Below are positions 3,928-25,036 of a stretch of DNA of 53,871 bases, in pieces. Source of the DNA: Eubacteriales bacterium (GTDB taxonomy: Bacteria > Bacillota > Clostridia > Lachnospirales > Lachnospiraceae); contig JAUNDV010000015.1 in NCBI GenBank assembly GCA_030525875.1, positions 1-53,871 of the forward strand. Reading direction: 5' to 3'. The notes below the pieces were generated by a model that did no database searches, was not told where the DNA came from, and saw only the letters and a list, made by a program, of their open reading frames with translations. Positions within the stretch are counted from its first letter, which is position 1, and every line of letters starts with the position of its first letter. Made by a program: the position numbers and the translations under genes.

Positions 3928-3945
3928 ATAATACATAAAACAATA

Positions 3946-3987
3946 AGACTGTATATTGCTAATAAGGCAGTGTACAGTCTTTTTTAT
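3946..3987 (+). terminator. Intrinsic terminator of rny
   Basis: AGACTGTA (3946-3953) pairs with TACAGTCT (3973-3980), followed by TTTTTATT. Confidence 0.85.
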
Positions 3988-4164
3988 TAATATCACAGGA
4001 TATTACAGTTTGACATTTTAATTATAAATGCTATTATATAAATAGTAATAAAAACTATGTATAATAATTATAGAAAATATATTTTATGATTATTATAACT
4101 ATATCTATTTACTTTAAATGTTTTTATGTTTGTGTGTGATAAAAACAAAGTGAGGTATAGAAGC

Positions 4165-8046: not shown

Positions 8047-9054
8047 ATGGGACTTACAAGGGAGCAGTACAACAGAATAATGCGTGTTTATCAGGACAGA
8101 AGGATAAATGCGCAGCACGATATGGAGAAAAGGCAGGGAGTGGTATATGACCACGTCCCTGCCATTCGAGATTTATCATATAGAATAAGCCAGCTTGCAG
8201 TAAGTGCTGCTGAGGCTCAAATACGCAGCAATGCAGAGCTTGCATCAAAGCTAAAGAAGGAAATCGCAGGACTTTCAGATGAGAAACGGAGACTTCTCGA
8301 AGAGAGTGGCTACGGGGCAGATTATCTCGATATTCATTATGAATGCGAGAGCTGTAAGGATACAGGATATATAGGCAATGAAAAATGCGGCTGTCTCAAG
8401 AAGCTTGAATCTGAGCTTATATATGCAGCCTCAGGACTTCCAGTTATTTTAAGAAAAGAGAATTTTGCAAGCTTTGATCTAAGCGTGTATGACAATGAGG
8501 TACCTATAAAGCGACTTCAGCCAAAGTTCAATCTTACACAAAGAAGCTATATGGCAAATATGATCATGCCAAGAGTTAAGAATTTTGTGGATGAATTTGA
8601 TACGGTAAAAGGCAGAAATATCCTCATGACAGGACCAACAGGAGTTGGAAAGACCTTCCTGAGCAATTGCATTGCAAAGGCCATCATAGATAAGTGCCAT
8701 ACAGTCCTGTACCTCAATGCAGGCGAGCTGTTTGACCTTCTCTCCAAGAACAGCTTCAGCTATGAAAGTGACGAGGTCTTAAGTGGTAAAATCGAAGAAA
8801 TATACGACTGTGACCTGCTTATTATTGACGATTTAGGCACAGAGCTTAGTTCCGGATTTACAAATTCCAAACTATTTATGCTTATTAGTCATAGACTTTT
8901 ACATAACTTATCAACTATAATATCTTCAAACCTAAGTTTGAACAATATCGGAAGCGTCTATGGAGACCGTATAGCTTCCAGATTTATGGAGAACTATATC
9001 AATCTGCCATTTTACGGGGCAGATCTTAGACTTAAAGGAGGAAAGCGTAAATGA
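8047..9054 (+). CDS. DnaI/DnaC-type helicase loader ATPase
   Basis: AAA+ ATPase, 335 aa, that loads the replicative helicase. An N-terminal helical region is followed by a zinc cluster with C100-x2-C103 and C114-x-C116, as in DnaI. The AAA+ core has Walker A GPTGVGKT (196-203), Walker B LLIIDD (257-262), sensor-1 region SSNLSLNNI, and arginine-finger region YGDRIASRF. It starts at the base after the DnaD-like stop codon and overlaps prs by ATGA, so DnaD-like, loader and Prs form one coupled operon. The zinc cluster makes it DnaI-like rather than E. coli DnaC-like. Confidence 0.93.
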   Translation: MGLTREQYNRIMRVYQDRRINAQHDMEKRQGVVYDHVPAIRDLSYRISQLAVSAAEAQIRSNAELASKLKKEIAGLSDEKRRLLEESGYGADYLDIHYECESCKDTGYIGNEKCGCLKKLESELIYAASGLPVILRKENFASFDLSVYDNEVPIKRLQPKFNLTQRSYMANMIMPRVKNFVDEFDTVKGRNILMTGPTGVGKTFLSNCIAKAIIDKCHTVLYLNAGELFDLLSKNSFSYESDEVLSGKIEEIYDCDLLIIDDLGTELSSGFTNSKLFMLISHRLLHNLSTIISSNLSLNNIGSVYGDRIASRFMENYINLPFYGADLRLKGGKRK

Positions 9055-10265
9055 GCATCAACGACGAGAAAAAAGAAAAGAGCAGACCGGGAGAGCAGAC
9101 AATCGAGACAATACCAGTAGGACCTCTTGGACTTGTTCCGCTTAAGGGAGTAAGCTCACTCGCCAAGGAGATCGATTCTTATCTTGTTCAGTGGAGATCA
9201 GAGAGAGAGTCTGAGCATAAGGAAAATATTTTATTTGCAGGATATCAGAAGGACAGCTTCATAATTGAATCAGACTGCCCACGTTTTGGAAGCGGAGAAG
9301 CTAAGGGTATAGTAAAGACCTCTGTAAGAGGAGACGATCTTTATTTCATAACTGATGTTACAAATTATTCAATAACATATTCAGTAAGCGGACTTCAGAA
9401 CCACTATTCTCCTGATGATCATTTTCAGGATCTTAAGAGAGTCATTGCTGCTTCAGCAGGTAAGGCTAAGCGTATGACAGTTATTATGCCATTCCTTTAT
9501 GAGGGAAGACAGCACAAGCGCTCAGGCAGAGAGTCTCTTGACTGTGCACAGATGCTTCAGGAGCTTGTTGCTATGGGTGTAAGCAATATCATTACCTTCG
9601 ATGCACATGATCCTAGAGTTCAAAATGCAATTCCTCTCAGTGGATTTGAAACAGTAAGCCCTACTTATCAGTATATTAAGGCAATTTTAAACGAGGTTCC
9701 TGACCTTGATATTGATTCAGAGCATATGATGATAATAAGTCCTGATGAAGGCGGAATGGGCAGAGCAATTTATTTTGCCAACGTTTTAGGACTTGATATG
9801 GGTATGTTCTATAAGAGAAGAGATTATACAAAGGTCGTAAATGGAAGAAATCCTATCGTTGCTCACGAGTTCCTTGGCGCTTCAGTTGAAGGAAAGGATG
9901 TTATCATAGTTGACGATATGATTTCATCAGGAGAGTCAATGGTAGATGTTGCAAGAGAGCTTAAGAGAAGAAAGGCAAGAAGAGTATTCTGCTGTGCAAC
10001 CTTTGGCCTCTTCACAAGCGGAACAAAGATATTCGACCATGCATATGAGGATGGAATCATTGACAGAGTATTTACAACCAATATGGTATATCAGACTCCT
10101 GAGCTCCTTAAGAGAGAATGGTATGTAAGCGTAGACATGGCGAAGTATATCGCACTCATTATAGACTGTCTCAATCATGACAATTCATTAAGCAATCTTC
10201 TTAGCCCGGTTGAGCGTATTAACAAGAGAGTTAACGCTTACAAGGCAAAGAGAGCTGAAGAATGA
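9051..10265 (+). CDS. prs: Ribose-phosphate pyrophosphokinase (PRPP synthetase), long form
   Basis: Makes 5-phosphoribosyl-1-pyrophosphate from ribose-5-phosphate and ATP for nucleotide, His and Trp synthesis. At 404 aa it is about 90 residues longer than the classical 315-aa enzyme. The extra length includes an N-terminal stretch of about 60 residues and a longer C-terminus. Visible marks are the ATP-loop segment MPFLYEGRQHKR, DAHDPRVQNAI, and the PRPP loop VIIVDDMISSGES (about residues 284-296). AAAGGAGG precedes the ATG, which overlaps the loader stop as ATGA. The 3' end overlaps the acyltransferase start in the same way. Linking PRPP supply to helicase loading in one transcript is noteworthy. 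Confidence 0.93.
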   Translation: MSINDEKKEKSRPGEQTIETIPVGPLGLVPLKGVSSLAKEIDSYLVQWRSERESEHKENILFAGYQKDSFIIESDCPRFGSGEAKGIVKTSVRGDDLYFITDVTNYSITYSVSGLQNHYSPDDHFQDLKRVIAASAGKAKRMTVIMPFLYEGRQHKRSGRESLDCAQMLQELVAMGVSNIITFDAHDPRVQNAIPLSGFETVSPTYQYIKAILNEVPDLDIDSEHMMIISPDEGGMGRAIYFANVLGLDMGMFYKRRDYTKVVNGRNPIVAHEFLGASVEGKDVIIVDDMISSGESMVDVARELKRRKARRVFCCATFGLFTSGTKIFDHAYEDGIIDRVFTTNMVYQTPELLKREWYVSVDMAKYIALIIDCLNHDNSLSNLLSPVERINKRVNAYKAKRAEE

Positions 10266-11452
10266 ATAGGGCTTCAGAAAAAAAGCTAATAAGTAAAGAA
10301 ATAAATGCAGCAGGATCCGGTTCCAAAGATATGATTCTTAGGAACCGGATATATGTATACAGCTTTATTCTTACTGTTCTGGTAATCTGGATACATTCAC
10401 CTAGTCTTGCAGTATTTGATTATGACAAGCTTATACAGGGTAGTAATATGCTGTATCGGAATATCCAGGCGCTTATTTTAAAGATTGCCGGGGCAGCAGT
10501 TCCTGGATTTTTTTTATTGAGCGGATATCAGTTCTTTAGAGATCTCAGAGAAGAGAAAATAGCATATACAGTAGAAGCTGAGGATTGCTGTGGAATCAGA
10601 AGCAGGAAAATGCATATCGCATATGGAATAATAGCCTCAAAGCTGATGAGACGTGTTAAGACCTTGCTGCTTCCTTATCTACTGTGGAATCTTATCTATT
10701 TCGCAATGAATATTGTTGCAAAGGGAGAAATCCTTAGTTTAGGAAATCTTTTTGAAGCAATAGTATACTACAAATACAATCCAGTATTTTGGTATATGCA
10801 TCAGTTGATCAGGATAAGTATACTTACTCCGTTACTGTATCCTCTGATAAGATATAAAAGAACCGCAATACTTTCCCTGTCACTATTTTTTATTGCCGCA
10901 GTAAAATATGATGTACTTCCGTTTCATTTTGCAAATGAGGATGCCATTTTCTACTATGTTGCAGGTGCTGTTATTGTCTTGCACTGGGATTTTATTTCTA
11001 ATGAGCTTAGTGATGTAAATCGAAGAAAAAAACAGCTTCTGGTAGTTTGCTGCAATTTGATGGCAGTAGTAATACTTTTTTTTGTATCTGATATAGCTTT
11101 TGAAAGTAATATTTTATTTTTTAATCCACACGAGCTTATGATAATGTTCCTCATATTGTTTAGAATATCCACAGCTCTGCTTGTAATGAACTTAATCATG
11201 CTCGTAGATCTTAGCAGATTTAAAGCGAGGGATATATTTAAGATCAGCTTCTTTATCTATGCTATTCATCCTATAGAAATCAAGCTTGCGAAGATAGCCC
11301 AGACACTGGCAGGACTCAATGAAAATGTTGTAATAACATTTGTATTATTTATGCTGATGCCGGTTATATGTTATGCGGTATCATACCTTGTATATAGGTT
11401 TATGAAGAGATATATGAATAGGTTTTATCTGATGCTAAGTGGCGGAAGGTGA
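10262..11452 (+). CDS. Integral membrane acyltransferase (acyltransferase 3-like)
   Basis: A 396-aa protein with about ten hydrophobic segments and the pattern of acyltransferase-3 proteins: a first membrane helix with IHSPSL, VPGFFLLSGYQFFRDL in the second, LLPYLLWNLIYF, and a run of C-terminal helices ending FMKRYMNRFY. Such proteins acylate sugars or surface polymers at the membrane; the substrate is unknown. The start ATG overlaps the prs stop (ATGA), so it is the last gene of the operon and translationally coupled. Its link to replication genes is probably only positional. A bidirectional terminator follows at once. Confidence 0.75.
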   Translation: MNRASEKKLISKEINAAGSGSKDMILRNRIYVYSFILTVLVIWIHSPSLAVFDYDKLIQGSNMLYRNIQALILKIAGAAVPGFFLLSGYQFFRDLREEKIAYTVEAEDCCGIRSRKMHIAYGIIASKLMRRVKTLLLPYLLWNLIYFAMNIVAKGEILSLGNLFEAIVYYKYNPVFWYMHQLIRISILTPLLYPLIRYKRTAILSLSLFFIAAVKYDVLPFHFANEDAIFYYVAGAVIVLHWDFISNELSDVNRRKKQLLVVCCNLMAVVILFFVSDIAFESNILFFNPHELMIMFLILFRISTALLVMNLIMLVDLSRFKARDIFKISFFIYAIHPIEIKLAKIAQTLAGLNENVVITFVLFMLMPVICYAVSYLVYRFMKRYMNRFYLMLSGGR

Positions 11453-11493
11453 AAAAAAGAGAATATCCTCTTATTGAGGGTACTCTCTTTTTT
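11453..11493. terminator. Bidirectional terminator between convergent genes
   Basis: AAAAAGAGA and TCTCTTTTT flank an imperfect inner stem around CCTC/GAGG with loop TTATT. A-run and T-run on both sides serve the acyltransferase operon (+) and the solute-binding protein gene (-). Confidence 0.8.
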
Positions 11494-11502
11494 AGTAAAT
11501 TA

Positions 11503-12807
11503 TTATTCAAAAGTCAAATTAGGAATTGCCTCAAGTAATTTTTCTTTGAAGTATTCAAAAGCAGCATTGGCATTCATACCATCAGTATATTTGATTGCGG
11601 CTATCGTATCTTCAAAAGCACTAAGTATAGCAGTAGCATGTTCTTCTGTAGGATATATTTTTGCATTTGGAACTAAATCTTCAAAAATTACATTTCCTAT
11701 ATTTTGTTCTCCAAAACATTCAATATTGAAATTTTTATCTATAGTATCAGATGTTTGCATATGAGCAAGTACTAATCCGGATTTTTTTAGCTGGTTTATA
11801 GCTCCTTCGTCCGACATAAGCCAGTAGTTAAGAAATTCAAAAGCTATATCCTTTTTGTCTGATTTTTTGGGAATTACGCATACAGAGTATCCATATCCGT
11901 AACTTCCTTCAGGAGGAGCGATGAGTTTCCAGTCATTATTTTTATTATTTTCGAAGCTTCCATTTTGCATTAGCCAGCTTGACCAAGGCGTAAATAAATA
12001 TTTGTCATCGGAAAATGTTTCATACCATTTTGGCGAGCAACTTGAAATATTATCGACAAGATTTAAAGATTTTAGCTTACATAAAATTTCAAAGCTGGCT
12101 TTTATATGTTCGCTTTCAGTAAATGTTGAATTTGTAATATAAGGGTTATCTGTTTGATTAAAAAGGATATATCCTGGATCGTCTAAACTTGCAAAAAGAA
12201 ATATATCAGGAGATGATGTACTTTTTATTTCATAAGCCTTATCTATAAGATCATTCCAACTCTGAAAGTTTTGAATTACATCTTCAGGAGCACTAAATCC
12301 AAATGCTTTTTGCATAGCAGTTGTTCTGTACGCTATACCTGAAGCTGGAACATCTACGGGTATTGCTACGAGATTTCCATTTTTGTTTTCCATATGAGGT
12401 ATTAGCTCCTCTGGGAATAATTCTTCATTTAATGAATAAGGTTCTTTATCAAATTCTTCCCATATAGGATATGAAATAAAATCTGAAAGAAAATTTCCAT
12501 GTAATACACAGATATCTGGTAAAGGATTTCCAGCAGCTATTGCTTTTGAAAGACAGCTTGAATACTCATAATTTGGAATATAGGTATAGTCAAGGTTAAG
12601 GTTTGTATATCCATATTTATTTTTAAAGTCTTCAAAAATAGAAACAATGGAACTATCCCAATACCATATACTCAAAGTTTCTTGATCTGAATCCTTTGTA
12701 TTTTCCGAGACATCAGATTTAGGCTTCGTTGCGAAAGATACAAAAGCAGCTATTGAAACATATACAACTATAATTAAGATAAGATTTTTAATTATTTTTT
12801 TGTTCAT
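11503..12807 (-). CDS. Extracytoplasmic solute-binding protein linked to a sensor kinase
   Basis: A 434-aa protein of the family-1 extracellular solute-binding group. The N-terminus MNKKIIKNLILIIVVYVSIAAF is one hydrophobic segment without a lipobox cysteine, so it is either an uncleaved membrane anchor or a cleaved signal. The mature part has the mixed fold seen in sugar-type SBPs (LSIWYWDSSIVSIFEDF, DICVLHGNF, LVAIPVDVPASGIAYR, FTPWSSWLM, AFEFLNYWLMSDEG). No ABC permease or ATPase is adjacent. Its ATG overlaps the kinase stop by 4 bp (ATGA). This suggests a sensory co-receptor presenting ligand to the kinase rather than an importer subunit (inference). Confidence 0.8.
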   Translation of the reverse strand: MNKKIIKNLILIIVVYVSIAAFVSFATKPKSDVSENTKDSDQETLSIWYWDSSIVSIFEDFKNKYGYTNLNLDYTYIPNYEYSSCLSKAIAAGNPLPDICVLHGNFLSDFISYPIWEEFDKEPYSLNEELFPEELIPHMENKNGNLVAIPVDVPASGIAYRTTAMQKAFGFSAPEDVIQNFQSWNDLIDKAYEIKSTSSPDIFLFASLDDPGYILFNQTDNPYITNSTFTESEHIKASFEILCKLKSLNLVDNISSCSPKWYETFSDDKYLFTPWSSWLMQNGSFENNKNNDWKLIAPPEGSYGYGYSVCVIPKKSDKKDIAFEFLNYWLMSDEGAINQLKKSGLVLAHMQTSDTIDKNFNIECFGEQNIGNVIFEDLVPNAKIYPTEEHATAILSAFEDTIAAIKYTDGMNANAAFEYFKEKLLEAIPNLTFE

Positions 12808-14537
12808 AACTTTCCTTTCTTAGGAAAACGTATATACCATGTCGTTCCTTTGAATTCTTCACTATAAACCTGCATTGTATAATTTCCATTATACAGATAG
12901 TTAAGTCTGTCTTTAATTGTCTGTATACCTATAGAATGCGTACTGTCTTCAGACTGAATTTGTTTATTATTTAAATTATCAATAATTTCTTGAGACATAC
13001 CTACACCTGAATCTGATAGATATAGCTCTACAGAGTCTTCGCTTTCATATACAGATAGCTCTATAGTACCTGGATCATCTGATGGTACAATGCCGTGATA
13101 TATAGCATTTTCTATAAGTGGCTGAAGAATATTTTTAGGTATTATTATTTCTTTATTTGATGCATCACATGTAAAGGTAAATTTATCTTTATATCTATAT
13201 TTTTGTATTGTACAATATGCGTCTATAATTTTTAATTCATTATCTAAAGTATCAGTAAGCTTGTCGTCATACATTTTCATTCCGGATTGAAGCATTATAA
13301 TAAGAGAACGTAGCATGTTTTCACAATCATAGGCCTTTTCATTATGAGCAAGATAAACACTTGAATTAAGCGTATTATAAAGAAAATGTGGATGTATTCG
13401 TGACATAAGCATATCTATCTGAAGCTTCTTTTTTTGTTTTTCTTTTTCATTATTATCGGCAATAAGCTGATTTATGTCATCAACCATGGTATTAAAGGTA
13501 TTGCCAAGAAGCTCAAGCTCATCTCCGGTTTTGATATTGACTTTTACGTTTAGTTCTCCATTTGCAAAAGCTTTCATTTTATCTGACAGTTGTGAAAGTG
13601 GCGCCATATAGCTGTTGATAAGAATTATACATAAAAGCGTTATAACTAACATGGTAATAGGTGTTAGTATAAGCATAAAAATAATAAGATAATTCATATT
13701 GGTTGAAAGCGTATTTTCCTTACTAAATGTAACAACTGAAAGTATTCCTTTATTTAGGTGGCTTCTTATTATATAACCATCAGAGTATTTTATTGGTTCT
13801 TCTGATATATTGGAAAGAGAATTTATATTGTCAAAGTATTCTGACAGTACATAAGAATTGTCTTTACTTGTATGTATGAGAACGTTATTATTTTCATCTA
13901 CAAGCATAAATTCTGTAAAGCCATTATAAAATTCAGAAAATTGCTTTTGCCATTCATCTGCGTTTAGATGTATAAGTATCTCTCCAATTTTCAATGTTGG
14001 ATTTTTTGAATGATATATATTGGACTTAACTGTAATAAGTCGTATATTCTTTCTTTCTGATATGTTGAGAAAATGAGGTGCACTAAACTGAATTTGACGG
14101 CTGTCTTTAGATAAATCCTTATACCAATCCATTTTTAAAGATTCATCAAGTGTATCTTCAAATGGGTAAGCAGACCAAATGGAGTGTTGCGGAGAAATAA
14201 GTGAAATACTATGTACAAAAGTACGTCTGTTAGCATAACCTCTCATAAGATCTGAAATATTTTTAATGGTATTAAAATCATTTGCATTTTCAGGATTGAG
14301 GCAGTATTCCTGTATGTCTGATTCGAATGCAAGGCTTTCACAAAATGAATTTAAATCCTGAACAATTATCTGAAGCTGGGAAGCACCAGCATCCTGAATA
14401 AGCTGCTTTTTTTCTAAAGCATCTGCTAAAGTTAGATTCTTTGTGTAGTTTGCAATAAACATCCAGCTTAAAATCATTATTATAAAAATGAAAGCTGCGA
14501 TAGCAGCACTTATTTTTTTTGCAATACTGGTTTTCAT
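12804..14537 (-). CDS. YesM-type sensor histidine kinase
   Basis: A 577-aa membrane kinase. Order: membrane helix (about 8-28), large extracellular sensor region (about 30-270), second membrane helix (about 280-305), HAMP domain (about 306-360), then a HisKA_7TM/YesM dimerisation segment with IHPHFLYNTLNS, the phospho-accepting His at about residue 382. The HATPase domain follows (LQPLIENAIYHGI, DSGVGMS, SIGIQTIKDRL). Start ATG 14537 has GAGG 6 nt upstream, preferred to the TTG at 14543. It is co-transcribed with the solute-binding protein gene. Its likely partner is the YesN-type regulator encoded at 17437-19077, separated by pepT and a permease. Confidence 0.92.
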   Translation of the reverse strand: MKTSIAKKISAAIAAFIFIIMILSWMFIANYTKNLTLADALEKKQLIQDAGASQLQIIVQDLNSFCESLAFESDIQEYCLNPENANDFNTIKNISDLMRGYANRRTFVHSISLISPQHSIWSAYPFEDTLDESLKMDWYKDLSKDSRQIQFSAPHFLNISERKNIRLITVKSNIYHSKNPTLKIGEILIHLNADEWQKQFSEFYNGFTEFMLVDENNNVLIHTSKDNSYVLSEYFDNINSLSNISEEPIKYSDGYIIRSHLNKGILSVVTFSKENTLSTNMNYLIIFMLILTPITMLVITLLCIILINSYMAPLSQLSDKMKAFANGELNVKVNIKTGDELELLGNTFNTMVDDINQLIADNNEKEKQKKKLQIDMLMSRIHPHFLYNTLNSSVYLAHNEKAYDCENMLRSLIIMLQSGMKMYDDKLTDTLDNELKIIDAYCTIQKYRYKDKFTFTCDASNKEIIIPKNILQPLIENAIYHGIVPSDDPGTIELSVYESEDSVELYLSDSGVGMSQEIIDNLNNKQIQSEDSTHSIGIQTIKDRLNYLYNGNYTMQVYSEEFKGTTWYIRFPKKGKL

Positions 14538-14631
14538 AAACAACCTCTTTAGTTAAAAACATACATTATAATCGTATATTTTAGCATATTATAGTATATA
14601 TTTTATCATAATTTTAATAAAAATCCCAATT

Positions 14632-14685
14632 TCTAACATAATATCCGGTTTTCGAAAGTTTATAAAAATTTTATATTTGTATAAT
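14632..14685 (+). promoter_or_regulatory. 27-bp motif (copy 1) and promoter of pepT
   Basis: The motif TCTAACA...AATATCC...TTCGAAAG spans 14632-14658 and is followed 21 nt later by TATAAT (14680-14685), about 60 nt before the pepT ATG. The same motif (24 of 27 positions) recurs at 19224-19250. There is no good -35 hexamer, as expected for an activator-dependent promoter. It lies in the region divergent to the kinase operon and could serve both directions. The YesN-type regulator is the proposed binder (inference). Confidence 0.7.
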
Positions 14686-14745
14686 CAAAATATACACAAA
14701 AGTAATGGCACGACGCCTAAAAAATATATTAAGGGAGGATGTAAA

Positions 14746-15981
14746 ATGAATAGACTTGTAGAACGTTTATTCCGTTACATTGCTATTGATACTCAGTCAG
14801 CTAGAGGAACAGGAACTTTCCCAAGCACTGAGAAGCAGAAAAATCTTGGAAGACTTCTTGTAGAAGAGCTTCAGGCAATGGGAATCACTAATGCTGAGAT
14901 GGATGAATTTGGAACGGTTTATGCAACAATTGAAAGCAGCGAAGGGGTTTCTGAATCTGTGCCAGCTATAGGATTTACAGCTCATATGGATACAGCTCTT
15001 GAGCTTCCTGGTGTAGGAATCAAGGCGAGAGTTATTGAGAATTATGATGGAGAAGACATTGTTCTTAATGAAGAGAAAAACATAATTTTCAAAACATCAC
15101 AATTCCCTAGATTAAAGGTTTATAAGGGAAAAGACCTTGTTGTTGCAGATGGAACAACACTTCTTGCAGCTGATGATAAGGCAGGTGTAAGTGAGATTAT
15201 GGAGCTTGCTCATATACTTATGACAAATCCTGAAATAAAACATGGTGTAGTAAAGCTTTGCTTTACCTGTGATGAAGAGATAGGACAGTCAACACAGCAC
15301 CTTAATCTTGAGAAGTTTAATCCTAATTTTGCCTACTCTCTTGATGGAGGAGAAGAGGGTGAATTCTATTATGACAATTTTAACTGTGGACAGGCAGATG
15401 TAACTATTCATGGTAAGGTTGCCCATACGGGATATGCTAAAGGGCGTATGGTTAACGCAAGTCACCTCGCTATGGAATTCCATAGTATGATAGATCCATT
15501 AGCTATTCCGGCAAATACAGCAAATAGAGAGGGATTTACACATCTTTCAAGCTTAAATTCAGAAGTTGGTATGGCGAAGATGGTATATCTTGTAAGAGAT
15601 CATGAGATGACTCTTTACACACAGAAGAAGGAAAATCTCCAGAGAATTGCTGATTTCATGAATGCAAAATATGGTGAGGGAACTGTTGAAATTAACTTCA
15701 AGGATATTATGTATAACATGAGAGACAAGATCCTTGAAAATCCATTTATTATTGATAATGCTATAGATGCAATGAATGAGCTTGGAATAGAGCCGGTTGT
15801 TATTCCTGTAAGAGGTGGCGTAGATGGAGCAGAGATTACATTTATGGGTCTTCCATGTCCAAACCTTTTCACTGGTAGTGACAACTGTCATACAATTTAT
15901 GAGTATTGCTGTGTACAGTCTATGGAGAAAGCACTTGCGCTTATATTAAAACTTGTAGAAAACTGTGTTAAAAAGGCCTGA
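14746..15981 (+). CDS. pepT: Peptidase T (tripeptide aminopeptidase)
   Basis: Cytosolic M20 metallopeptidase that removes the N-terminal residue of tripeptides; 411 aa, normal length. Zinc-ligand motifs are visible: AHMDT (79-83), LLAADDKAG (about 139-147), CDEEIGQ (about 175-181), and the C-terminal HTIYEY. A dimerisation lid domain is inserted around AHTGYAKGRMVNA. The start at 14746 has GGGAGG 7 nt upstream; an upstream in-frame extension to 14677 runs through the promoter and is rejected. The APC permease follows after 64 bp, probably in the same transcript. Confidence 0.95.
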   Translation: MNRLVERLFRYIAIDTQSARGTGTFPSTEKQKNLGRLLVEELQAMGITNAEMDEFGTVYATIESSEGVSESVPAIGFTAHMDTALELPGVGIKARVIENYDGEDIVLNEEKNIIFKTSQFPRLKVYKGKDLVVADGTTLLAADDKAGVSEIMELAHILMTNPEIKHGVVKLCFTCDEEIGQSTQHLNLEKFNPNFAYSLDGGEEGEFYYDNFNCGQADVTIHGKVAHTGYAKGRMVNASHLAMEFHSMIDPLAIPANTANREGFTHLSSLNSEVGMAKMVYLVRDHEMTLYTQKKENLQRIADFMNAKYGEGTVEINFKDIMYNMRDKILENPFIIDNAIDAMNELGIEPVVIPVRGGVDGAEITFMGLPCPNLFTGSDNCHTIYEYCCVQSMEKALALILKLVENCVKKA

Positions 15982-16045
15982 TATAAAATATAAGATGTAA
16001 AACTGGATAAAGTAGCATAATTAATATCTGGAAGGAGAGAAAATT

Positions 16046-17389
16046 ATGTCAAGCGATGGAAATCAGACAGAGTTTAAACAGGTCTTAACTAAAAAAGATC
16101 TGTTCGGTATTGCTATCGGTATGATCATCGGTGCCGGTGTTATGACACTTACAGGTATCGGAATTGGAAGAACAGGACGTTCAGTATTTATTTCATACCT
16201 TCTTGCAACATTTTTTGCATTGTTCTTTGCAGTACCAGCCATTATAAGTAGTTCAATTGCACGTTTTAAGGGTGGTAACTACACAGTATGGTCACTTACA
16301 GTAGGAGAGAAATGGTGCGGAGCATGGCTCATAATTCTTATCATTGGTGAGCTTGGTATCTGTATGTATGCAATGTCATTTGCAGAGTACTTCTGTGCTT
16401 TATTCCCACAGCTTGAGCCAAGATTTGTTGCTATTGCTATTGCAACTGTATTCTTTGTAATGAACTTCTTTGGAATAAATATCATGGCTAAGATTGAGAA
16501 CATACTTACGGTGGGGCTTGTAGGAGCTATCATTATGTTCATCGTATGTGGAATGCCTCATGTTAAGTGGGATACATTCTTTAGCCAGCCTGATTTCATG
16601 CTTAAGGGAGTAAGTGGAGTATTTGCAGGAGCTGCATTCCTTAACTATGCGCTTCTTGGAGCATCAGAACTTCTTACGTTTTCTGCGGAAACAAAGAATC
16701 CTAAGAAGGATATTCCTACAACAATTATACTCTCAACTGCATTTGTAGCAGCACTTTTCTCATTACTTTCAATCGTAGCAGCAGGAGTACTTCCTGTAGC
16801 AGATGTAATAGGAAAGCCACTTACATTAGTAGCAGATGTTATCTTCCCTAAGCCACTTTACTATGCATTCATAGTACTTGGAGCACTTGGAGCAACAGCA
16901 ACAACACTTAATGTAACAGTAGCATTTATAACAAAGCCATTCGTATTTGCATCAAGAGACGGATGGTTCCCTAAGAAGATGGGTGAGCTTCATCCAAAGT
17001 ACCACACACCACACAGATGGCTTCTTGTATGGTACATTATCTGTATCGTTCCACTTGCACTTGACTTCAGTGTAAGCCAGATTGCAGACCTTGTAATGTT
17101 TATCATCTACCTTCGTACAATAGTATATTCACTCAGCTTCCTTAAGATTCCAAAGATCTTCCCGGAGCAGTGGAAGAAATCAATATTCTATATGCCAAAC
17201 TGGGCATTTACCTTACTTATGGGAAGCTGTGCAGCAGTAGCAGCATACCAGCTTATTGTTAACCTTATGAATGCAGACCCTAAGATGATTATGATCAATA
17301 TCGTAGTTCTTATCGGTGCACTTATCTTCTCAGTAACACGTTACAACAGTGGTAAGGTTAAGATGCAGCCTTCATGGGAAGACGCTTAA
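16046..17389 (+). CDS. APC-superfamily amino-acid permease, copy 1
   Basis: A 447-aa protein with about 12 membrane helices and the APC signature in helix 1 (IAIGMIIGAGVMTLTG). Other segments typical of amino-acid permeases are SSSIARFKGGNYTVWSL, FAGAAFLNYALLGASELL and GATATTLNVTVAFITKP. The substrate is not known; the neighbours pepT and serine dehydratase suggest an amino acid from peptide breakdown, or its exchange. AAGGAGAG lies just before the ATG. It is almost identical to the gene at 20272, with differences confined to the first few codons and a central patch. A bidirectional terminator follows. Confidence 0.9.
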   Translation: MSSDGNQTEFKQVLTKKDLFGIAIGMIIGAGVMTLTGIGIGRTGRSVFISYLLATFFALFFAVPAIISSSIARFKGGNYTVWSLTVGEKWCGAWLIILIIGELGICMYAMSFAEYFCALFPQLEPRFVAIAIATVFFVMNFFGINIMAKIENILTVGLVGAIIMFIVCGMPHVKWDTFFSQPDFMLKGVSGVFAGAAFLNYALLGASELLTFSAETKNPKKDIPTTIILSTAFVAALFSLLSIVAAGVLPVADVIGKPLTLVADVIFPKPLYYAFIVLGALGATATTLNVTVAFITKPFVFASRDGWFPKKMGELHPKYHTPHRWLLVWYIICIVPLALDFSVSQIADLVMFIIYLRTIVYSLSFLKIPKIFPEQWKKSIFYMPNWAFTLLMGSCAAVAAYQLIVNLMNADPKMIMINIVVLIGALIFSVTRYNSGKVKMQPSWEDA

Positions 17390-17423
17390 TCATTATAATA
17401 CATTTAACCCCCCTAAAAATGTA

Positions 17424-17458
17424 AAAAAGTCGTCGGTTATTGAACCGGCGGCTTTTTT
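17424..17458. terminator. Bidirectional terminator
   Basis: AAAAAAGTCG..CGGTT / AACCG..CGGCTTTTTT, an 11-bp stem with one mismatch and A/T runs on both sides, between the permease (+) and the response regulator (-). The minus-strand gene ends just inside it. Confidence 0.85.
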
Positions 17459-19077
17459 GATATGTCATCTATAGAAAAATCTTCTAAATCTAAAAGAACA
17501 TAATCTGAAGGGGAATATCCTGTTACTCTATGGAAGGTAACACTAAAATATTGACTACTTTGATAACCCACGTGAGATGCTACTTCATTTATCTGAAGTT
17601 TGCCACTTTTAAGAAGCTGACAAGCAATCTTCATTCTATAGTTTGTAAGATATTTTGAAAAGCCTGTACCAACTTCTGATCTAAATAGCTTATTAAGATA
17701 TTCTTCGTTAAGGTTAAGCTTATCAGCTATACTATGAATAGTTAAATCTTCCATATAATATTCATGTATTATTTGTATTATTTCGGCTATTCTAGGACTA
17801 TAGCTATGCTTAGGCAACATTTTTGCTTTTTCATAGAATTCTTCAAAAAGATTCCATAATTGAGAGGCAGAAGATGTTCCTTTGAGCTCTTCCTTATATT
17901 CGTTATTTAGAGCAACATTAGAAAGTCTCTTTTCTAATAGGGTGCTCATACCATCTGTACAAATATGTATATCAGAAACTGACTGTGTTTTTACAGCTAA
18001 ATCAAAATAATTTTTTAATTTAGAAAAGCTTTGCTCACTGCTATTAGATGTAAGAGCATTTTGGAATTCTTTACGTTCTGTAAGCAGAGATTTATCCATT
18101 GATTTAACATTATTATTAAGTTCTTGAATTGAAATAATTCTTTTGTTCCCTAAAAAGATACATTTAGGTTGGCATTCCTCAAGTTGCTTTAGCATAGGAT
18201 AAAGATCTGAAGCTTGCATAAAAGGATTTGACGCAAGTACACAGTTAATATGCATATCAGGCGGAGCAACAGCTCCTGAAAGTTCTCGCAGAACGATATG
18301 AAGAAGTTCTGTTTGTTCAAGTATACTAACAAGTCCTGAAAATGATAGAAAAACTAAAATTTGCCCTTGAAGCCATGGAAGGCATACATACTTAAAAGTC
18401 ACAGCATCAGTTTTTGGGAGATTTATGTATTCGAGCTTTTGCTCAATACGTTCTCTTAAAGCTTCACGCTGTGATCTGAAGGTTGAGGCTTCATCATCGT
18501 GATTTACCCAAAAAGGCTGAAATTTTCTTACTAGAGCTAAATAAAAAACATGAGGCGTTTTATGTGGACAAAAAATCTCATTAAATTCTTCTATTGATTT
18601 TTCTGATATAGGAGGAGGCAGTAGTAATTTCTCTATAAGCACATACTGATGAGCGTGATTATGAATCTGCTCAGTTTCTATTTTTGCTATAAGAGGAGCT
18701 AAATTATTCTTTAGAGAATCTACGTTAAATTCATGTTTTAGTATATAACCGCTTGCTCCAAGAGAAACAGCTCTTCTAGCGTAGTCAAAATCTGAATAAG
18801 CTGTAAGAAGTAATACCTCTATATTAGGAAAATCCTTTTTTATAGATTGTAGAAGATCAAGTCCATTCATTTGAGGCATTTGAATATCTGTTATAACAAG
18901 ATCTGCATTTAGTTTTGGAAGCTTAAGTAAGGCTGTACGGGCATTATCAAAAGCACCTACTAGCTCTAAGTTAAGAGCAGGGGATTTGATGATTTCTTCA
19001 GCTGATGATAATGCTAATATATCGTCATCTATAAGAACAACCCTAAGTTTTCTAATTTCCTGAAACTGATTGTACAA
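17437..19077 (-). CDS. YesN-type response regulator with AraC DNA-binding domain
   Basis: A 546-aa regulator. The N-terminal receiver domain (about 10-125) has the acidic pair IDDD, phospho-acceptor Asp in VITDIQMPQMNGLDLL (about residue 62) and LLLTAYSDF with the switch Thr. A long middle region of no clear family follows (about 130-440). The C-terminal AraC/XylS domain (about 445-540) has two helix-turn-helices (IHSIADKLNLNEEYLNKLF and INEVASHVGYQSSQYFSVTF). There is no suitable ATG. A TTG at 19077 has AGGAGG 7 nt upstream, so it is the start; a longer open frame to 19173 lacks a ribosome site. It pairs with the kinase at 12804-14537 by family and locus. Confidence 0.92.
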   Translation of the reverse strand: MYNQFQEIRKLRVVLIDDDILALSSAEEIIKSPALNLELVGAFDNARTALLKLPKLNADLVITDIQMPQMNGLDLLQSIKKDFPNIEVLLLTAYSDFDYARRAVSLGASGYILKHEFNVDSLKNNLAPLIAKIETEQIHNHAHQYVLIEKLLLPPPISEKSIEEFNEIFCPHKTPHVFYLALVRKFQPFWVNHDDEASTFRSQREALRERIEQKLEYINLPKTDAVTFKYVCLPWLQGQILVFLSFSGLVSILEQTELLHIVLRELSGAVAPPDMHINCVLASNPFMQASDLYPMLKQLEECQPKCIFLGNKRIISIQELNNNVKSMDKSLLTERKEFQNALTSNSSEQSFSKLKNYFDLAVKTQSVSDIHICTDGMSTLLEKRLSNVALNNEYKEELKGTSSASQLWNLFEEFYEKAKMLPKHSYSPRIAEIIQIIHEYYMEDLTIHSIADKLNLNEEYLNKLFRSEVGTGFSKYLTNYRMKIACQLLKSGKLQINEVASHVGYQSSQYFSVTFHRVTGYSPSDYVLLDLEDFSIDDISKKPPVQ

Positions 19078-19108
19078 ATTAAATCCTCCTGATAAAAGAT
19101 ATTTAAAT

Positions 19109-19138
19109 ATTATAGCATTAGTAATATAAAGATGACAA
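19109..19138 (-). promoter_or_regulatory. Promoter of the YesN-type regulator
   Basis: On the minus strand TTGTCA (19133-19138), 18 nt, TATAAT (19109-19114), about 30 nt before the TTG start. Confidence 0.55.
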
Positions 19139-19223
19139 TGTAAAAGGAGATATATTGTGTAATATGTATACAAATAATAAAAAAAGTATAAAATTATTAT
19201 ATTTTTATAAAAATATCTTAAAC

Positions 19224-19278
19224 TCTAACAAAATATCCTTTTTTCGAAAGCCTAAAGAAAAGCTTAACTTTGTATAAT
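19224..19278 (+). promoter_or_regulatory. 27-bp motif (copy 2) and promoter of the dehydrogenase operon
   Basis: TCTAACA...AATATCC...TTCGAAAG at 19224-19250, differing from copy 1 only at three positions. TATAAT follows at 19273-19278, after 22 nt. Start codon at 19318. Same arrangement as before pepT, again in a region divergent to a regulatory gene. Confidence 0.7.
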
Positions 19279-19317: not shown

Positions 19318-20217
19318 ATGTTTCATAAAACAGTCGTTGTTGATAATACTGGAATGAATCAGTGGGCTAAGGATCGTTTAAGAGAGTTATCAGAAGAAGC
19401 ATTTTTCTATGATGATTTTCCTACAGATCCAGAAGTAATCAAAAACCGCATAGGTGATGCAGACTGCCTAATGGTTTCATATTGTACTCTTATTACAAGA
19501 GACATTATTGAAGCTTGTCCAAATCTTAAATATATCGGTATGTGCTGTTCTCTTTATAGTGAGAAGAGTGCAAATGTAGATATTGTGTGTTGCCGTGAAA
19601 GAAATATTAAGGTTACAGGAATATTCGATTATGGTGATGGAGGAGTAATAGAATTTGGTGTTAGTGCACTTGTATGGCTTCTTCATGGATTTGGTGGTAA
19701 GAGATGGAAAGAACGTCCAAATGAGCTTGATGGACAGAAAATAGGAATTTTGGGCCTTGGTACCACGGGTTACAAGCTTGCAAAAGCCCTTCAGGATTTC
19801 GGAGCAGATATATATTACTCAGATCTTGTTAGAAAAGAAGAAGCTGAAAGTAGAGGTATGAAGTATCTTCCTCTCAATGAACTTTTAGAAACAGTTGATA
19901 TTCTTTCAACACAGCTTCCTAAAAATTCATGCCTTCTCAAAGAAGCAGAGTTTGAAAGATTTGGAAATGGAAAGATTCTTCTTAATACTTCAATTGGACC
20001 TACATTTTCTGTGCCAGCTCTTAAGAAATGGCTTGAGAATCCGACTAATTTCTATATATGTGAGGAAGTTGGTGTAGGCGATACATATGATGAACTCAAG
20101 GATTACGAGAATTTTATGTATGTACCTGGATGTGCAGGAAGTTCAGAACAGTGCACACTTAGACTTTCACAGAAGTCAATTGCAAATGTGGAAGCATTTT
20201 TAGAGCAGAATGCTTAA
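19318..20217 (+). CDS. Divergent D-isomer 2-hydroxyacid dehydrogenase-like protein
   Basis: A 299-aa protein with the two-domain layout of the D-2-hydroxyacid dehydrogenase family. The NAD-binding Rossmann motif GILGLGTTGYKLAKAL lies at about 143-158, with a preceding catalytic-domain half. The usual catalytic Arg in NTxRG is replaced (NTSIG), and the usual PHxxG histidine motif reads PGCAG. The standard Arg/His chemistry therefore looks lost or changed. It has many cysteines (MCCSLY, IVCCRE). Start 19318 is chosen for AAAGGTGG 7 nt upstream and because the promoter -10 is at 19273; the upstream frame starts inside the promoter. First gene of a probable operon with the second permease and serine dehydratase. 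Confidence 0.8.
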   Translation: MFHKTVVVDNTGMNQWAKDRLRELSEEAFFYDDFPTDPEVIKNRIGDADCLMVSYCTLITRDIIEACPNLKYIGMCCSLYSEKSANVDIVCCRERNIKVTGIFDYGDGGVIEFGVSALVWLLHGFGGKRWKERPNELDGQKIGILGLGTTGYKLAKALQDFGADIYYSDLVRKEEAESRGMKYLPLNELLETVDILSTQLPKNSCLLKEAEFERFGNGKILLNTSIGPTFSVPALKKWLENPTNFYICEEVGVGDTYDELKDYENFMYVPGCAGSSEQCTLRLSQKSIANVEAFLEQNA

Positions 20218-20271
20218 ATATGAATTAAAAAAGGAAAAGCTTTTTTAAATAAAGAAAAAGGAGAAAAAATT

Positions 20272-21615
20272 ATGTCTAACGAGAGTAATCAGACAGAGTT
20301 TAAACAGGTCTTAACTAAAAAAGATCTGTTCGGTATTGCTATCGGTATGATCATCGGTGCCGGTGTTATGACACTTACAGGTATCGGAATTGGAAGAACA
20401 GGACGTTCAGTATTTATTTCATACCTTCTTGCAACATTTTTTGCATTGTTCTTTGCAGTACCAGCCATTATAAGTAGTTCAATTGCACGTTTTAAGGGTG
20501 GTAACTACACAGTATGGTCACTTACAGTAGGAGAGAAATGGTGCGGAGCATGGCTCATAATTCTTATCATTGGTGAGCTTGGTATCTGTATGTATGCAAT
20601 GTCATTTGCAGAGTACTTCTGTGCTTTATTCCCACAGCTTGAGCCAAGATTTGTTGCTATTGCTATTGCAACTGTATTCTTTGTAATGAACTTCTTTGGA
20701 ATAAATATCATGGCTAAGATTGAGAACATACTTACAGTAGGTCTTGTAGGAGCTATTATTATGTTCATCGTATGTGGAATGCCACACGTTAAGTGGGATA
20801 CATTCTTTAGCCAGCCTGATTTCATGCTTAAGGGAGTAGGCGGAGTATTTGCAGGAGCTGCATTCCTTAACTATGCACTTCTTGGAGCATCAGAGCTTAT
20901 TACTTTCTCAGCTGAGACAAAGAATCCTAAGAAGGATATTCCTTCAACAATTATACTTTCAACTGCATTTGTAGCAGCACTTTTCTCATTACTTTCAATC
21001 GTAGCATCAGGTGTACTTCCTGTAGCAGATGTAATAGGAAAGCCACTTACATTAGTAGCAGATGTTATCTTCCCTAAGCCACTTTACTATGCATTCATAG
21101 TACTTGGAGCACTTGGAGCAACAGCAACAACACTTAATGTAACAGTAGCATTTATAACAAAGCCATTCGTATTTGCATCAAGAGACGGATGGTTCCCTAA
21201 GAAGATGGGTGAGCTTCATCCAAAGTACCACACACCACACAGATGGCTTCTTGTATGGTACATTATCTGTATCGTTCCACTTGCACTTGACTTCAGTGTA
21301 AGCCAGATTGCAGACCTTGTAATGTTTATCATCTACCTTCGTACAATAGTATATTCACTCAGCTTCCTTAAGATTCCAAAGATCTTCCCGGAGCAGTGGA
21401 AGAAATCAATATTCTATATGCCAAACTGGGCATTTACCTTACTTATGGGAAGCTGTGCAGCAGTAGCAGCATACCAGCTTATTGTTAACCTTATGAATGC
21501 AGACCCTAAGATGATTATGATCAATATCGTAGTTCTTATCGGTGCACTTATCTTCTCAGTAACACGTTACAACAGTGGTAAGGTTAAGATGCAGCCTTCA
21601 TGGGAAGATGCTTAA
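20272..21615 (+). CDS. APC-superfamily amino-acid permease, copy 2
   Basis: A 447-aa, 12-helix permease nearly identical to copy 1, offset 4226 bp. Protein differences by eye are only in the first five residues and at four central positions (VSG/VGG, ELL/ELI, PTT/PST, AAG/ASG). DNA is identical from about 20286 to 20740 and from about 21020 to the end apart from one synonymous change. The divergent patch lies between (copy 2 about 20741-21015). Upstream and downstream flanks differ from copy 1. It sits between the 2-hydroxyacid dehydrogenase-like gene and sdaAB. Confidence 0.9.
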   Translation: MSNESNQTEFKQVLTKKDLFGIAIGMIIGAGVMTLTGIGIGRTGRSVFISYLLATFFALFFAVPAIISSSIARFKGGNYTVWSLTVGEKWCGAWLIILIIGELGICMYAMSFAEYFCALFPQLEPRFVAIAIATVFFVMNFFGINIMAKIENILTVGLVGAIIMFIVCGMPHVKWDTFFSQPDFMLKGVGGVFAGAAFLNYALLGASELITFSAETKNPKKDIPSTIILSTAFVAALFSLLSIVASGVLPVADVIGKPLTLVADVIFPKPLYYAFIVLGALGATATTLNVTVAFITKPFVFASRDGWFPKKMGELHPKYHTPHRWLLVWYIICIVPLALDFSVSQIADLVMFIIYLRTIVYSLSFLKIPKIFPEQWKKSIFYMPNWAFTLLMGSCAAVAAYQLIVNLMNADPKMIMINIVVLIGALIFSVTRYNSGKVKMQPSWEDA

Positions 21616-21640
21616 TAAGCAATAACCATAAATAAAATTC

Positions 21641-21673
21641 TAAAAGCCCTTCTCACAAGAGAGGGGCTTTAAA
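21641..21673 (+). terminator. Weak terminator or attenuator hairpin before sdaAB
   Basis: AAAGCCC...GGGGCTTT with an inner CTC/GAG pairing forms a stable stem, but only a short T stretch follows. It may partly separate the permease from the serine dehydratase genes or stabilise the 3' end. Confidence 0.5.
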
Positions 21674-21704
21674 TTCTAAAACGCCTTATATTAGGAGATG
21701 TACT

Positions 21705-22385
21705 ATGGATCTAAGCATATTTGATATTGTGGGACCAGTAATGGTTGGACCATCATCCAGTCACACAGCTGGAACTGCAAAACTTGCAAGAATTGCTGCC
21801 CAAATAGCAGGAAAAAATTTCATAGAGGTAAGTTTTGGACTTCATGGCTCTTTGGCAAAGACTGGACAGGGACATGGAACACCGAAGGCGCTTTTGGCTG
21901 GTGCAATAGGCATTTATGAAGATGATGAAAAATTAAGAGATGCCTATCTTTATGCAAAAGCTAAAAATATAAAGTATAGCTTTTATGAGGCAGAGCTTGA
22001 TGACTGCCATGAAAATACTGTTTTAATTACATTTAAATATAAAAATGGTAAAGAACGTAATATTCAGGGAAGTAGTATTGGTGGCGGAAGAATTGTAATT
22101 ACTAAAATTGATGGAACAGATACTAATATATCGGCTGAATGTCCGACTATTATGCTTACACATAAAGATATTCCAGGAATGGTAAGTGAAATAAGCCGTG
22201 TTCTTACTGAAAGTAATATAAACATTGGTATTATGAGAGTATCTAGAAAAATCAAAGGAGATAAGGCAACAACAGTGATTGAAACGGATTCCGTTATTCC
22301 AGAGGATGTTGCTTCTAGACTAGAGAGAATTAGTGGAATAATCAATGCATGTGTGATAAATCCAGCTTATAAGGAGGTTCAGTGA
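21705..22385 (+). CDS. sdaAB: L-serine dehydratase, beta subunit
   Basis: A 226-aa subunit of the two-chain Fe-S L-serine ammonia-lyase that turns serine into pyruvate and ammonia. The N-terminal domain has the family segment VGPVMVGPSSSHTAGTAKLA and LHGSLAKTGQGHGT. The C-terminal ACT domain (about 150-226: LTHKDIPGMVSEISRVL) probably binds an amino-acid effector. A TTAGGAG ribosome site precedes the ATG. Its stop overlaps the start of the alpha subunit gene (TGATG), the usual pairing in clostridia. Confidence 0.95.
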   Translation: MDLSIFDIVGPVMVGPSSSHTAGTAKLARIAAQIAGKNFIEVSFGLHGSLAKTGQGHGTPKALLAGAIGIYEDDEKLRDAYLYAKAKNIKYSFYEAELDDCHENTVLITFKYKNGKERNIQGSSIGGGRIVITKIDGTDTNISAECPTIMLTHKDIPGMVSEISRVLTESNINIGIMRVSRKIKGDKATTVIETDSVIPEDVASRLERISGIINACVINPAYKEVQ

Positions 22386-23245
22386 TGTACAATACTATAG
22401 AACAGCTTATAGCTGAAGCTAAAGACAAGGATCTCTTTACCGTTATTGTTGAAAATGAAAAGCAGATTCAGGGAAAAACAGAAGAGGAGATTTGGAAATC
22501 ACTATCAGACAGATGGGATGTAATGTATAGAAGTTCACATAAAGCACTTTATTCTTCACAGACTATGGTAGGTAATCTGATAAGCGGTCAGGCTTCTAAA
22601 CAGGAAGATTATTCAGGTGGAAAAACATTATGCGGACTTGAATTAAATCACATGATGTCTATGGCTCTTTCAAGTAGTGAAGTTAATGCGGCTATGGGAA
22701 GAATTTGTGCAGCGCCTACAGCAGGAGCCTGTGGCATTCTTCCAGCAGTATTGCAGACAGCTGCCAACCATCTGAGATTGTCACAGGAAATGATTATTAA
22801 AGCTATGGCAGTTGCTGCTGGCTTTGGAGCAGTTATTACAAAAAATGCAACTGTTTCAGGTGCAGAAGGTGGTTGTCAGGCAGAATGTGGAGTTGCAGCA
22901 GCTATGGCATCAGCAGGTGTTGTGTATATGGCAGGAGGAACAGCACAGGCATGTGCAAATGCATGTGCAATAACATTAATGAATTGTATGGGGCTTGTTT
23001 GTGACCCAGTGGCAGGACTTGTACAACTTCCATGTTCATATAGAAATGCTAGCCAAAGTATGAATGCGTTATTAAGTGCAGATTTGGCACTTGCTGGGCA
23101 AGATCCTGTTATTCCATGTGATGAAGTAATTGATTCAATGTTCAGAGTAGGAAAGAAGCTCCCTATGGAGTTAAGAGAAACCGCTCTAGGAGGCATAGCT
23201 GCAACACCTACAGGAAAACAACTAGCTAAGAAAATTTATAATTAA
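22385..23245 (+). CDS. sdaAA: L-serine dehydratase, alpha subunit (Fe-S)
   Basis: A 286-aa catalytic subunit carrying the oxygen-sensitive 4Fe-4S cluster. Family cysteine motifs are visible: CAAPTAGACGILPAV, EGGCQAECGVA and VCDPVAGLVQLPC. The start ATG at 22385 has AAGGAGG 7 nt upstream and overlaps the sdaAB stop as TGATG; the GTG at 22382 is too close to the ribosome site. It completes a peptide import, PepT and serine breakdown theme in this locus. Confidence 0.95.
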   Translation: MYNTIEQLIAEAKDKDLFTVIVENEKQIQGKTEEEIWKSLSDRWDVMYRSSHKALYSSQTMVGNLISGQASKQEDYSGGKTLCGLELNHMMSMALSSSEVNAAMGRICAAPTAGACGILPAVLQTAANHLRLSQEMIIKAMAVAAGFGAVITKNATVSGAEGGCQAECGVAAAMASAGVVYMAGGTAQACANACAITLMNCMGLVCDPVAGLVQLPCSYRNASQSMNALLSADLALAGQDPVIPCDEVIDSMFRVGKKLPMELRETALGGIAATPTGKQLAKKIYN

Positions 23246-23306
23246 AACTTTGCATATATACCCCTTTTTAGCCATATTTGAATGGCACATATAATTGAAT
23301 AATTTT

Positions 23307-23400
23307 ATACGTTCTTTCCCCTATACCATAACCGGAACGTATATTATTAGAAAATGGACTGTAGCTAAAGTAGATGTGTAAACTACTGAAGTTACAGTCC
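23307..23400 (+). terminator. Inverted repeats downstream of sdaAA, second one terminator-like
   Basis: ATACGTTC (23307-23314) pairs with GAACGTAT (23335-23342). Next, GGACTGTA...TACAGTCC (about 23354-23397) with an inner TAG/CTA pairing is followed by TATTTTC. The second is the likely end of the serine dehydratase transcript; the T-run is imperfect. Confidence 0.5.
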
Positions 23401-23439
23401 TATTTTCTTGCAATGAATTTTATAATATTATCAAAAATA

Positions 23440-23556
23440 TTCGCTGTAAAAAGAGTGACTATAATACACAAGTTCGTTGTAAAAAGTGTAGTTGTAATAC
23501 ATAAGTTCACTGTAAAAAATGTGTTTATAGTACATAAACTCGTTGTAATTTTTGTT
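23440..23556 (+). repeat. 33-bp direct repeats, three and a half copies
   Basis: Units start at 23440, 23473, 23506 and 23539 (last one partial), each exactly 33 bp. The shared core is TTCGYTGTAAAAA-(n)-GT-(n)-TAATACAYAAG. The array ends about 45 bp before the ATPase start codon. Because 33 bp is 11 codons, the plus strand has an open frame (23374-23586) with an 11-residue repeat, but no ribosome site, so I treat the array as DNA repeats. They may be operator iterons for the ATPase gene. Confidence 0.75.
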
Positions 23557-23602
23557 ATACCACGCTATAGTATATTTATATCATAGTAATGGGGGTGTCT
23601 GT

Positions 23603-24910: not shown

Positions 24911-24917
24911 TAGTCTT

Positions 24918-24953
24918 GGCGGAAATATCATTGCTGGTATTTCCGCCATTTTT
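24918..24953 (+). terminator. Intrinsic terminator of the ATPase gene
   Basis: GGCGGAAATA (24918-24927) pairs perfectly with TATTTCCGCC (24938-24947), followed by ATTTTTAT. Confidence 0.92.
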
Positions 24954-24974
24954 ATGTATTCTTTGCACTATTTC

Positions 24975-25003
24975 TTGATGTAACCACTTCAATACTATAT
25001 AAT
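24975..25003 (+). promoter_or_regulatory. Promoter of the methyltransferase gene
   Basis: TTGATG (24975-24980), 17 nt, TATAAT (24998-25003), 33 nt before the start codon. Confidence 0.75.
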
Positions 25004-25036
25004 GTAAATATTTGATATGAAAGGTATATATAAAAT

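Follow-up and report, generated by a model that had tools for sequence, protein, structure and literature searches.

A solute-binding protein, a YesM-type kinase and a YesN-type regulator beside two operons with near-identical promoter elements: a candidate three-component sensor in a Lachnospiraceae bacterium

We analysed a 53,871-nt stretch of DNA, hereafter the window, from the contig JAUNDV010000015.1 of the assembly GCA_030525875.1 (Eubacteriales bacterium, Lachnospiraceae). It harbors a gene for a solute-binding protein (SBP), a gene for a YesM-type sensor kinase and, 2.9 kb from the latter, a gene for a YesN-type response regulator (Table 1). Two operons lie on the opposite strand, the one comprising pepT and an APC-family permease gene (APC1), the other a gene for a 2-hydroxyacid-dehydrogenase-like protein and a second permease gene (APC2). 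Each of them starts in a divergent intergenic region, kinase/pepT or regulator/dehydrogenase, where a copy of a 27-bp element precedes the promoter. Judged by its domains, the gene set is that of an SBP-YesM-YesN three-component sensor, a known kind of system, and we propose that it probably activates both operons through this element, as outlined in an earlier note made from the DNA letters.

Table 1. Genes and sites of the locus (positions in the window).
Feature	Position	Strand	Remarks
Solute-binding protein (SBP)	11503..12807	-	Pfam SBP_bac_8/SBP_bac_1; hydrophobic N-terminus, no lipobox cysteine
YesM-type sensor kinase	12804..14537	-	Pfam HAMP, His_kinase (PF06580), HATPase_c; ATGA overlap with the SBP gene
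Candidate kinase-SBP promoter, TTAAAA-18-TATAAT	14588..14617	-	From a consensus scan whose hit total does not exceed that of shuffles
Candidate operator 1, two tandem 20-bp units	14619..14658	+	27-mer = 14632-14658
-10 TATAAT, pepT operon	14680..14685	+	No -35 found
PepT (tripeptide aminopeptidase)	14746..15981	+	NCBIfam NF003976; one of two genome copies
APC-family amino-acid permease 1 (APC1)	16046..17389	+	Pfam; 98.0% DNA identity to APC2
YesN-type response regulator	17437..19077	-	Pfam Response_reg (receiver) and AraC helix-turn-helix
Near-consensus regulator promoter, TTGTCA-18-TATAAT	19109..19138	-	Promoter scan; outside the shared block
Candidate operator 2, two tandem 20-bp units	19211..19250	+	27-mer = 19224-19250
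-10 TATAAT, dehydrogenase-APC2 operon	19273..19278	+	No -35 found
2-Hydroxyacid-dehydrogenase-like protein	19318..20217	+	Pfam; without the usual catalytic Arg and His
APC-family amino-acid permease 2 (APC2)	20272..21615	+	Pfam
12-bp hairpin, possible terminator or attenuator	21643..21670	+	-19.9 kcal/mol, z -5.7
Serine dehydratase beta subunit (sdaAB)	21705..22385	+	TIGR00719; regulon membership uncertain
Serine dehydratase alpha subunit	22385..23245	+	TIGR00718; regulon membership uncertain

The coupling of the SBP gene to the kinase gene, reported by the earlier note, is borne out by the 4-bp overlap (ATGA) of the SBP start and the kinase stop, and Pfam searches confirmed the domains of both proteins, together with those of the regulator that the note had matched to this kinase. 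The kinase boxes are intact (H-box PHFLYN, QPLIENA and GVGM), and the protein has two hydrophobic segments, an extracellular part and a dCache_1 match below the cut-off. Its start is most likely the ATG at 14537, and that of the regulator the TTG at 19077 behind AGGAGG, neither of which is the longest-frame start. The regulator gene is linked to the kinase gene and not adjacent to it; among the best 80 of at least 591 kinase relatives (at least 596 stretches scanned), 76 loci have a YesN-like gene. We regard the adjacency of the two genes as customary and do not count it as defining for three-component sensors.

The two copies of the 27-bp element are identical at 24 positions and differ at three, as first noticed in the letters. 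For comparison, 1000 dinucleotide shuffles of both intergenic regions gave best 27-mer matches with a mean of 19.1 and a maximum of 22 (0 of 1000 as good), and the local alignment score of the two regions (89) exceeds the maximum of 76 reached in 2000 shuffles. The two promoters resemble each other over about 95 bp, AGTATA through TATAAT (75.8% identity, E 5e-11). The stretch from the 27-bp core to the end of TATAAT was matched by 0 of 2000 shuffles, and its likeness is weaker without TTTGTATAAT (66 of 2000); by free local alignment, the whole flanks are not significantly alike (692 and 168 of 2000 shuffles as good). The TATAAT boxes follow the copies by 21 and 22 nt, and neither of them is paired with a -35 in the promoter scan, in agreement with the earlier note; the promoter and terminator scans stand at shuffle level overall and were used for named sites only. 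Ending 21 or 22 nt before TATAAT, thus at about -34/-35 relative to it, the element abuts the -35 position and occupies the place of a -35. In class II promoters, the site of an AraC-type activator abuts or overlaps the -35 position and a good -35 is lacking; both promoters appear to fit this arrangement. Each copy of the candidate operator appears to consist of two units with a 20-bp period (AAnATCn6TCnAA), which are alike at 12 of 20 positions. When the copies are counted jointly, nine positions are common to the units of each, against a mean of 6.2 in column shuffles, of which 37 of 2000 did as well; the tandem-unit signal is modest.

A search of the host genome (1,826,976 bases), one of the checks suggested earlier, returned only the two window copies when up to three mismatches were allowed at the 24 fixed positions, and a reversed-pattern control returned none. 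The only two genomic copies at this threshold sit in the divergent regions flanking the kinase and regulator genes. This location supports the proposal that the YesN-type regulator acts at the shared element, which we consider likely. The other suggested check, a search among relatives, gave no support outside the host genome: across 299 family genomes the motif occurs in three, namely the host, G160 (three mismatches) and G294 (two mismatches; G and L numbers are our designations of genomes and loci). We rejected the latter two matches as conserved sites and take them as chance, because the reversed-pattern control also hit two genomes and the open reading frames around the matches (3 kb, inspected by eye) are unrelated.

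An alternative that we regard as rather unlikely is that both promoters derive from one duplicated promoter, that a different, global regulator (for instance of amino-acid or carbon status) binds the element, and that the sensor controls other genes. The promoter likeness does extend beyond the core into the left-adjacent 40 bp of both copies (matched by 4 of 2000 shuffles), the APC genes of the two operons are 98% identical, which means that a duplication or conversion occurred here, and targets of the pepT and amino-acid type are often under global nutrient control. Against it, first, the site of a global regulator would be expected elsewhere in the genome, yet only two copies exist at up to three mismatches, and the half motif shows no excess either (20 hits including both copies vs 31 control hits). 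Second, the core (24/27) is better kept than the remainder of the aligned block (about 48/68). Third, none of the known consensus boxes compared (CodY, cre, Rex, Fur, PerR, LexA, ArgR, sigma-54 and FNR-like) has a good match at the core, the genome itself not having been searched for those regulators. The 15-bp CodY palindrome AATTTTCWGAAAATT matches at best with three and four mismatches, outside the core; TTTTCGAAAG is without the central W, and when the W is dropped, the best match in copy 1 lies at the core and has three mismatches. The best match overall to any of these boxes is PerR-like and falls in the left flank, at 14603 (2/15 mismatches; three mismatches in the other copy).

The predicted regulon of the earlier note comprised pepT, the two permeases, the dehydrogenase-like protein and serine dehydratase. 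The element does front the pepT-APC1 and dehydrogenase-APC2 operons; the membership of serine dehydratase is in doubt, the strong hairpin before sdaAB arguing for separate or attenuated expression. This hairpin has a weak T tail and an A-rich 5' side. The window pepT looks like an accessory copy. It is 47% identical to the other pepT of the genome (C32), and the latter (L119) shares a GHMP-kinase-type neighbor with the pepT loci read in three congeners (L116, L117 and L118); the pepT locus of a fourth congener (L120) is close to a contig end. The 98.0% DNA identity of APC1 and APC2 runs over 1359 bp and is bounded by the ribosome-binding site and the stop codon, the promoters being only about 76% alike, which suggests a recent duplication or gene conversion. 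Foreign APC relatives are 40-43% identical at best, and a match at 1e-60 is lacking from all 20 congeners listed; at the three foreign loci compared, the APC gene alone matches the window genes. At two of these (L278 and L280), the adjoining gene encodes, by eye, a MalY/PatB-type PLP-dependent lyase, a possible hint at the substrate.

The dehydrogenase-like protein has NTSIGP where the structure 1wwk has NTSRGP, and PGCAG at the His site; we presume these to be the positions of the catalytic Arg and His. The Arg is also absent from all seven aligned orthologues (eight members with that of the window; the motif is NTSIGP, and NTALSP in L125), and the L114 orthologue alone among the seven has a His at the catalytic His site. 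The subfamily (window, L111-L115, L124 and L125) is therefore a candidate for a pseudoenzyme or an altered chemistry. An aspartate-dehydrogenase-type gene, confirmed by Pfam, adjoins the orthologue in six of eight foreign loci, and none of these eight loci (one of them at a contig end) holds a BLASTP match at 1e-5 to the window kinase, SBP, regulator, pepT or APC. By eye, L114 has an importer and an SBP of its own about 6 kb from the orthologue. In L125 (G123, 9322-11115) the orthologue adjoins a SAM methyltransferase gene, and a member of the same Pfam family lies 4.8 kb downstream of the window dehydrogenase (19318-25957), which hints at an older linkage.

As to the ligand, the proteins of solved structure that match the SBP best by sequence are the cellobiose-binding 8bfy (E 1.8e-9), PotF, which binds putrescine (E about 1e-5), and SBPs for sugars; with a profile of eight SBP relatives, 5ixp and 8bfy come first. 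Next to the gene of the closest SBP relative (L045, 33%) are an ABC importer and the beginning of a gene for a GH42 beta-galactosidase. The same genome as the window has other genes for SBPs of the amino-acid family (SBP_bac_3) and of the peptide family (SBP_bac_5). The idea of the earlier note that the SBP senses amino acids or peptides is therefore unsupported, since both its sugar/polyamine-type families and its nearest relative point elsewhere. In our opinion, the most interesting point of the locus is that a sensor of sugar or polyamine type is set against an output of amino-acid genes.

Another explanation is that the three genes are a sugar sensor, left over from a carbohydrate locus or acquired without one, whose targets lie elsewhere and whose placement here is accidental. 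The SBP families and the importer and beta-galactosidase neighbors of L045 speak for it, as do the occurrence of a pepT homologue at none and of an APC homologue at one of the 80 kinase-relative loci, and the lack of any close relative of the locus. Among the genomes searched, we found no locus orthologous to the sensor and its operons. SBP matches at E 0.001 occur in 24 of 116 genomes searched (own included), the best outside the host being 33% identical (G327), and just one of 21 congeners listed has a match, a weak one (G315, 23%). A pattern scan of genome contigs for the SBP gave 142 matches and no relatives, records near the host genome being possibly left out. For the regulator, the top foreign match by E-value in 25 congeneric genomes (own included) is 25% identical (G316). 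We nevertheless hold an accidental placement to be quite improbable, as the element lies between the sensor genes and these very operons and nowhere else in the genome at up to three mismatches.

The SBP might also serve an ABC importer whose genes lie elsewhere and be no sensor at all, SBP genes being sometimes located far from those of their permeases. The 24 PF00528 permease matches of the genome form 15 clusters, of which 13 (21 of the 24 matches) contain a Pfam-confirmed SBP gene. In cluster C6 (two matches), the kinase gene is preceded by an SBP_bac_6 gene and the permease gene by one for an unclassified lipoprotein. For C13 (one match), the 8 kb read showed no SBP gene, which would leave room for a remote SBP. 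C13, though, encodes a single permease, and importers of the SBP_bac_8/SBP_bac_1 kind usually have two. An importer waiting elsewhere for the window SBP is unlikely, because 23 of the 24 matches share a cluster with an SBP or SBP-like gene, and none of the importers clearly requires it. As the SBP gene moreover overlaps the kinase gene, a role in import in place of sensing seems extremely improbable.

Together, these data lead us to favor the three-component sensor acting on both operons, which would operate as follows. The membrane-anchored SBP would capture an extracellular ligand and dock on the outer domain of the YesM-type kinase. The kinase, whose motifs are intact as are those of the receiver, and whose relatives have neighboring genes, would phosphorylate the YesN-type regulator. 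A regulator dimer would then bind the two tandem 20-bp units just upstream of each promoter and, as the layout with a perfect -10 and no -35 suggests, activate both promoters as a class II AraC-type activator. The operons pepT-APC1 and dehydrogenase-APC2 would be the outputs, and serine dehydratase might be reached by read-through. The regulator itself is probably expressed constitutively from its own near-consensus promoter, in line with the location of the latter outside the shared block.

Several observations weigh against this proposal. The tandem repeat is not significant within single copies (145 and 119 of 1000 shuffles), and the partly alike flanks mean that common descent of the two promoters could explain part of the match with no operator involved. 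The element is absent from L045 and from L048, the two closest relatives of the sensor genes; among 271 fetched loci (window-copy loci excluded), matches of at least 20/25 occur only in L003 and L004, both fetched by the pattern, and in L280 (20/25). Furthermore, neighboring SBP and kinase genes are not always functionally linked: in Pseudomonas aeruginosa, the kinases AgtS and AruS are encoded near SBPs for amino-acid-like ligands, and the tested SBP-kinase pairs did not interact (PMC11113362).

If the proposal is correct, three-component sensing through an SBP, which in Firmicutes has been described for sugars and sugar phosphates, extends to governing the use of peptides and amino acids. 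The locus would be a compact case of a sensor gaining new outputs, with two operons, two near-identical operators and one regulator. It also yields a defined hypothesis on the operator of a YesN-type regulator; for the AraC/XylS-type activators as a class, one paper notes that no consensus binding site is identifiable (PMC3572039). In its most specific form, which we put forward tentatively as a possible, if doubtful, scenario, the locus took shape in just one species lineage, where an SBP of sugar/polyamine type came to turn on the cleavage of peptides and the uptake of amino acids by secondary carriers, the link being the split YesM/YesN pair and the near-twin operators. An extracellular signal from one class of nutrients would thereby command the use of another.

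The author of the earlier note knew of no described system of this composition. The type of system is in print (CuaDSR, HptASR), and the novelty lies in the gene set and its arrangement, since the SBP-kinase-YesN sensor type was already published; for the gene set, our literature searches, in which subscription journals are poorly covered, returned no description. What sets the locus apart is that its predicted targets are pepT, the twin APC permeases and a degenerate dehydrogenase, and that its regulator gene is split off. CuaDSR of Ruminiclostridium cellulolyticum consists of a dedicated high-affinity sensor SBP, a kinase and a YesN/AraC regulator, like the set in the window, and the constitutive expression of its operon matches that predicted for the window regulator (PMC10384115). 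It differs in that CuaD is a predicted lipoprotein and that the target is a cellobiose ABC importer with a phosphorylase, whereas the window has no ABC target. XylFII-LytS-YesN of Clostridium beijerinckii, as cited in PMC10384115 and PMC13068155, has a sensor SBP complexed with its kinase and, unlike the window, concerns D-xylose and the control of sugar import.

The closest relatives among the genomes searched, L045 (G327) and L048 (G348), both of family f7 (the only two f7 genomes in the searched set), have SBPs 32-33% and kinases 33-35% identical to those of the window. They have a regulator-kinase-SBP row, which lies next to a divergently oriented ABC importer that has a lipoprotein SBP of its own (plus, in L045, a partial GH42 gene), and they lack the 27-bp element. 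L047 (G027, 8484-13203), another orphan three-component sensor, has a regulator-kinase-SBP row of overlapping genes and a lipoprotein SBP; the genes read there, over 19 kb, include no importer. The rows of L045, L048 and L047 speak for the three-component reading of the window, as do the published precedents CuaDSR and HptASR. In L197 (an uncultured Roseburia contig) the kinase and SBP genes overlap as in the window, and no ABC importer gene was seen in 6.3 kb. Unlike the window, L047 and L197 have SBPs with a lipobox (24% identical) and unrelated neighbor genes. A membrane anchor without a lipobox was rejected as a general mark of sensor SBPs: the window SBP and the kinase-coupled SBPs of L045 and L048 lack the lipobox, whereas those of L046, L047, L197 and L281 carry it (in L281 by reading, the pattern having missed it). 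L281 is a second SBP-kinase-regulator set of the host genome (G000 C6:96001-103000, 2658-6251), of the SBP_bac_6 type and followed by an importer cluster.

A further comparison is with HptASR of Staphylococcus aureus, of which we take HptS and HptR to be YesM/YesN-like and HptA to come from another SBP family. HptA binds its solute outside the cell, HptS is the kinase and HptR the regulator of the divergent uhpT (PMC6291074, PMC8774646). Both systems thus combine an outside sensor protein, a kinase and a regulator with the divergent control, predicted in the window, of a non-ABC secondary transporter gene (an antiporter gene in HptASR). There, hptASR is listed as one unit, with uhpT a verified target and glucose-6-phosphate the compound sensed, whereas the window has its regulator gene split off, its element at two operons, and peptide and amino-acid genes as neighbors.

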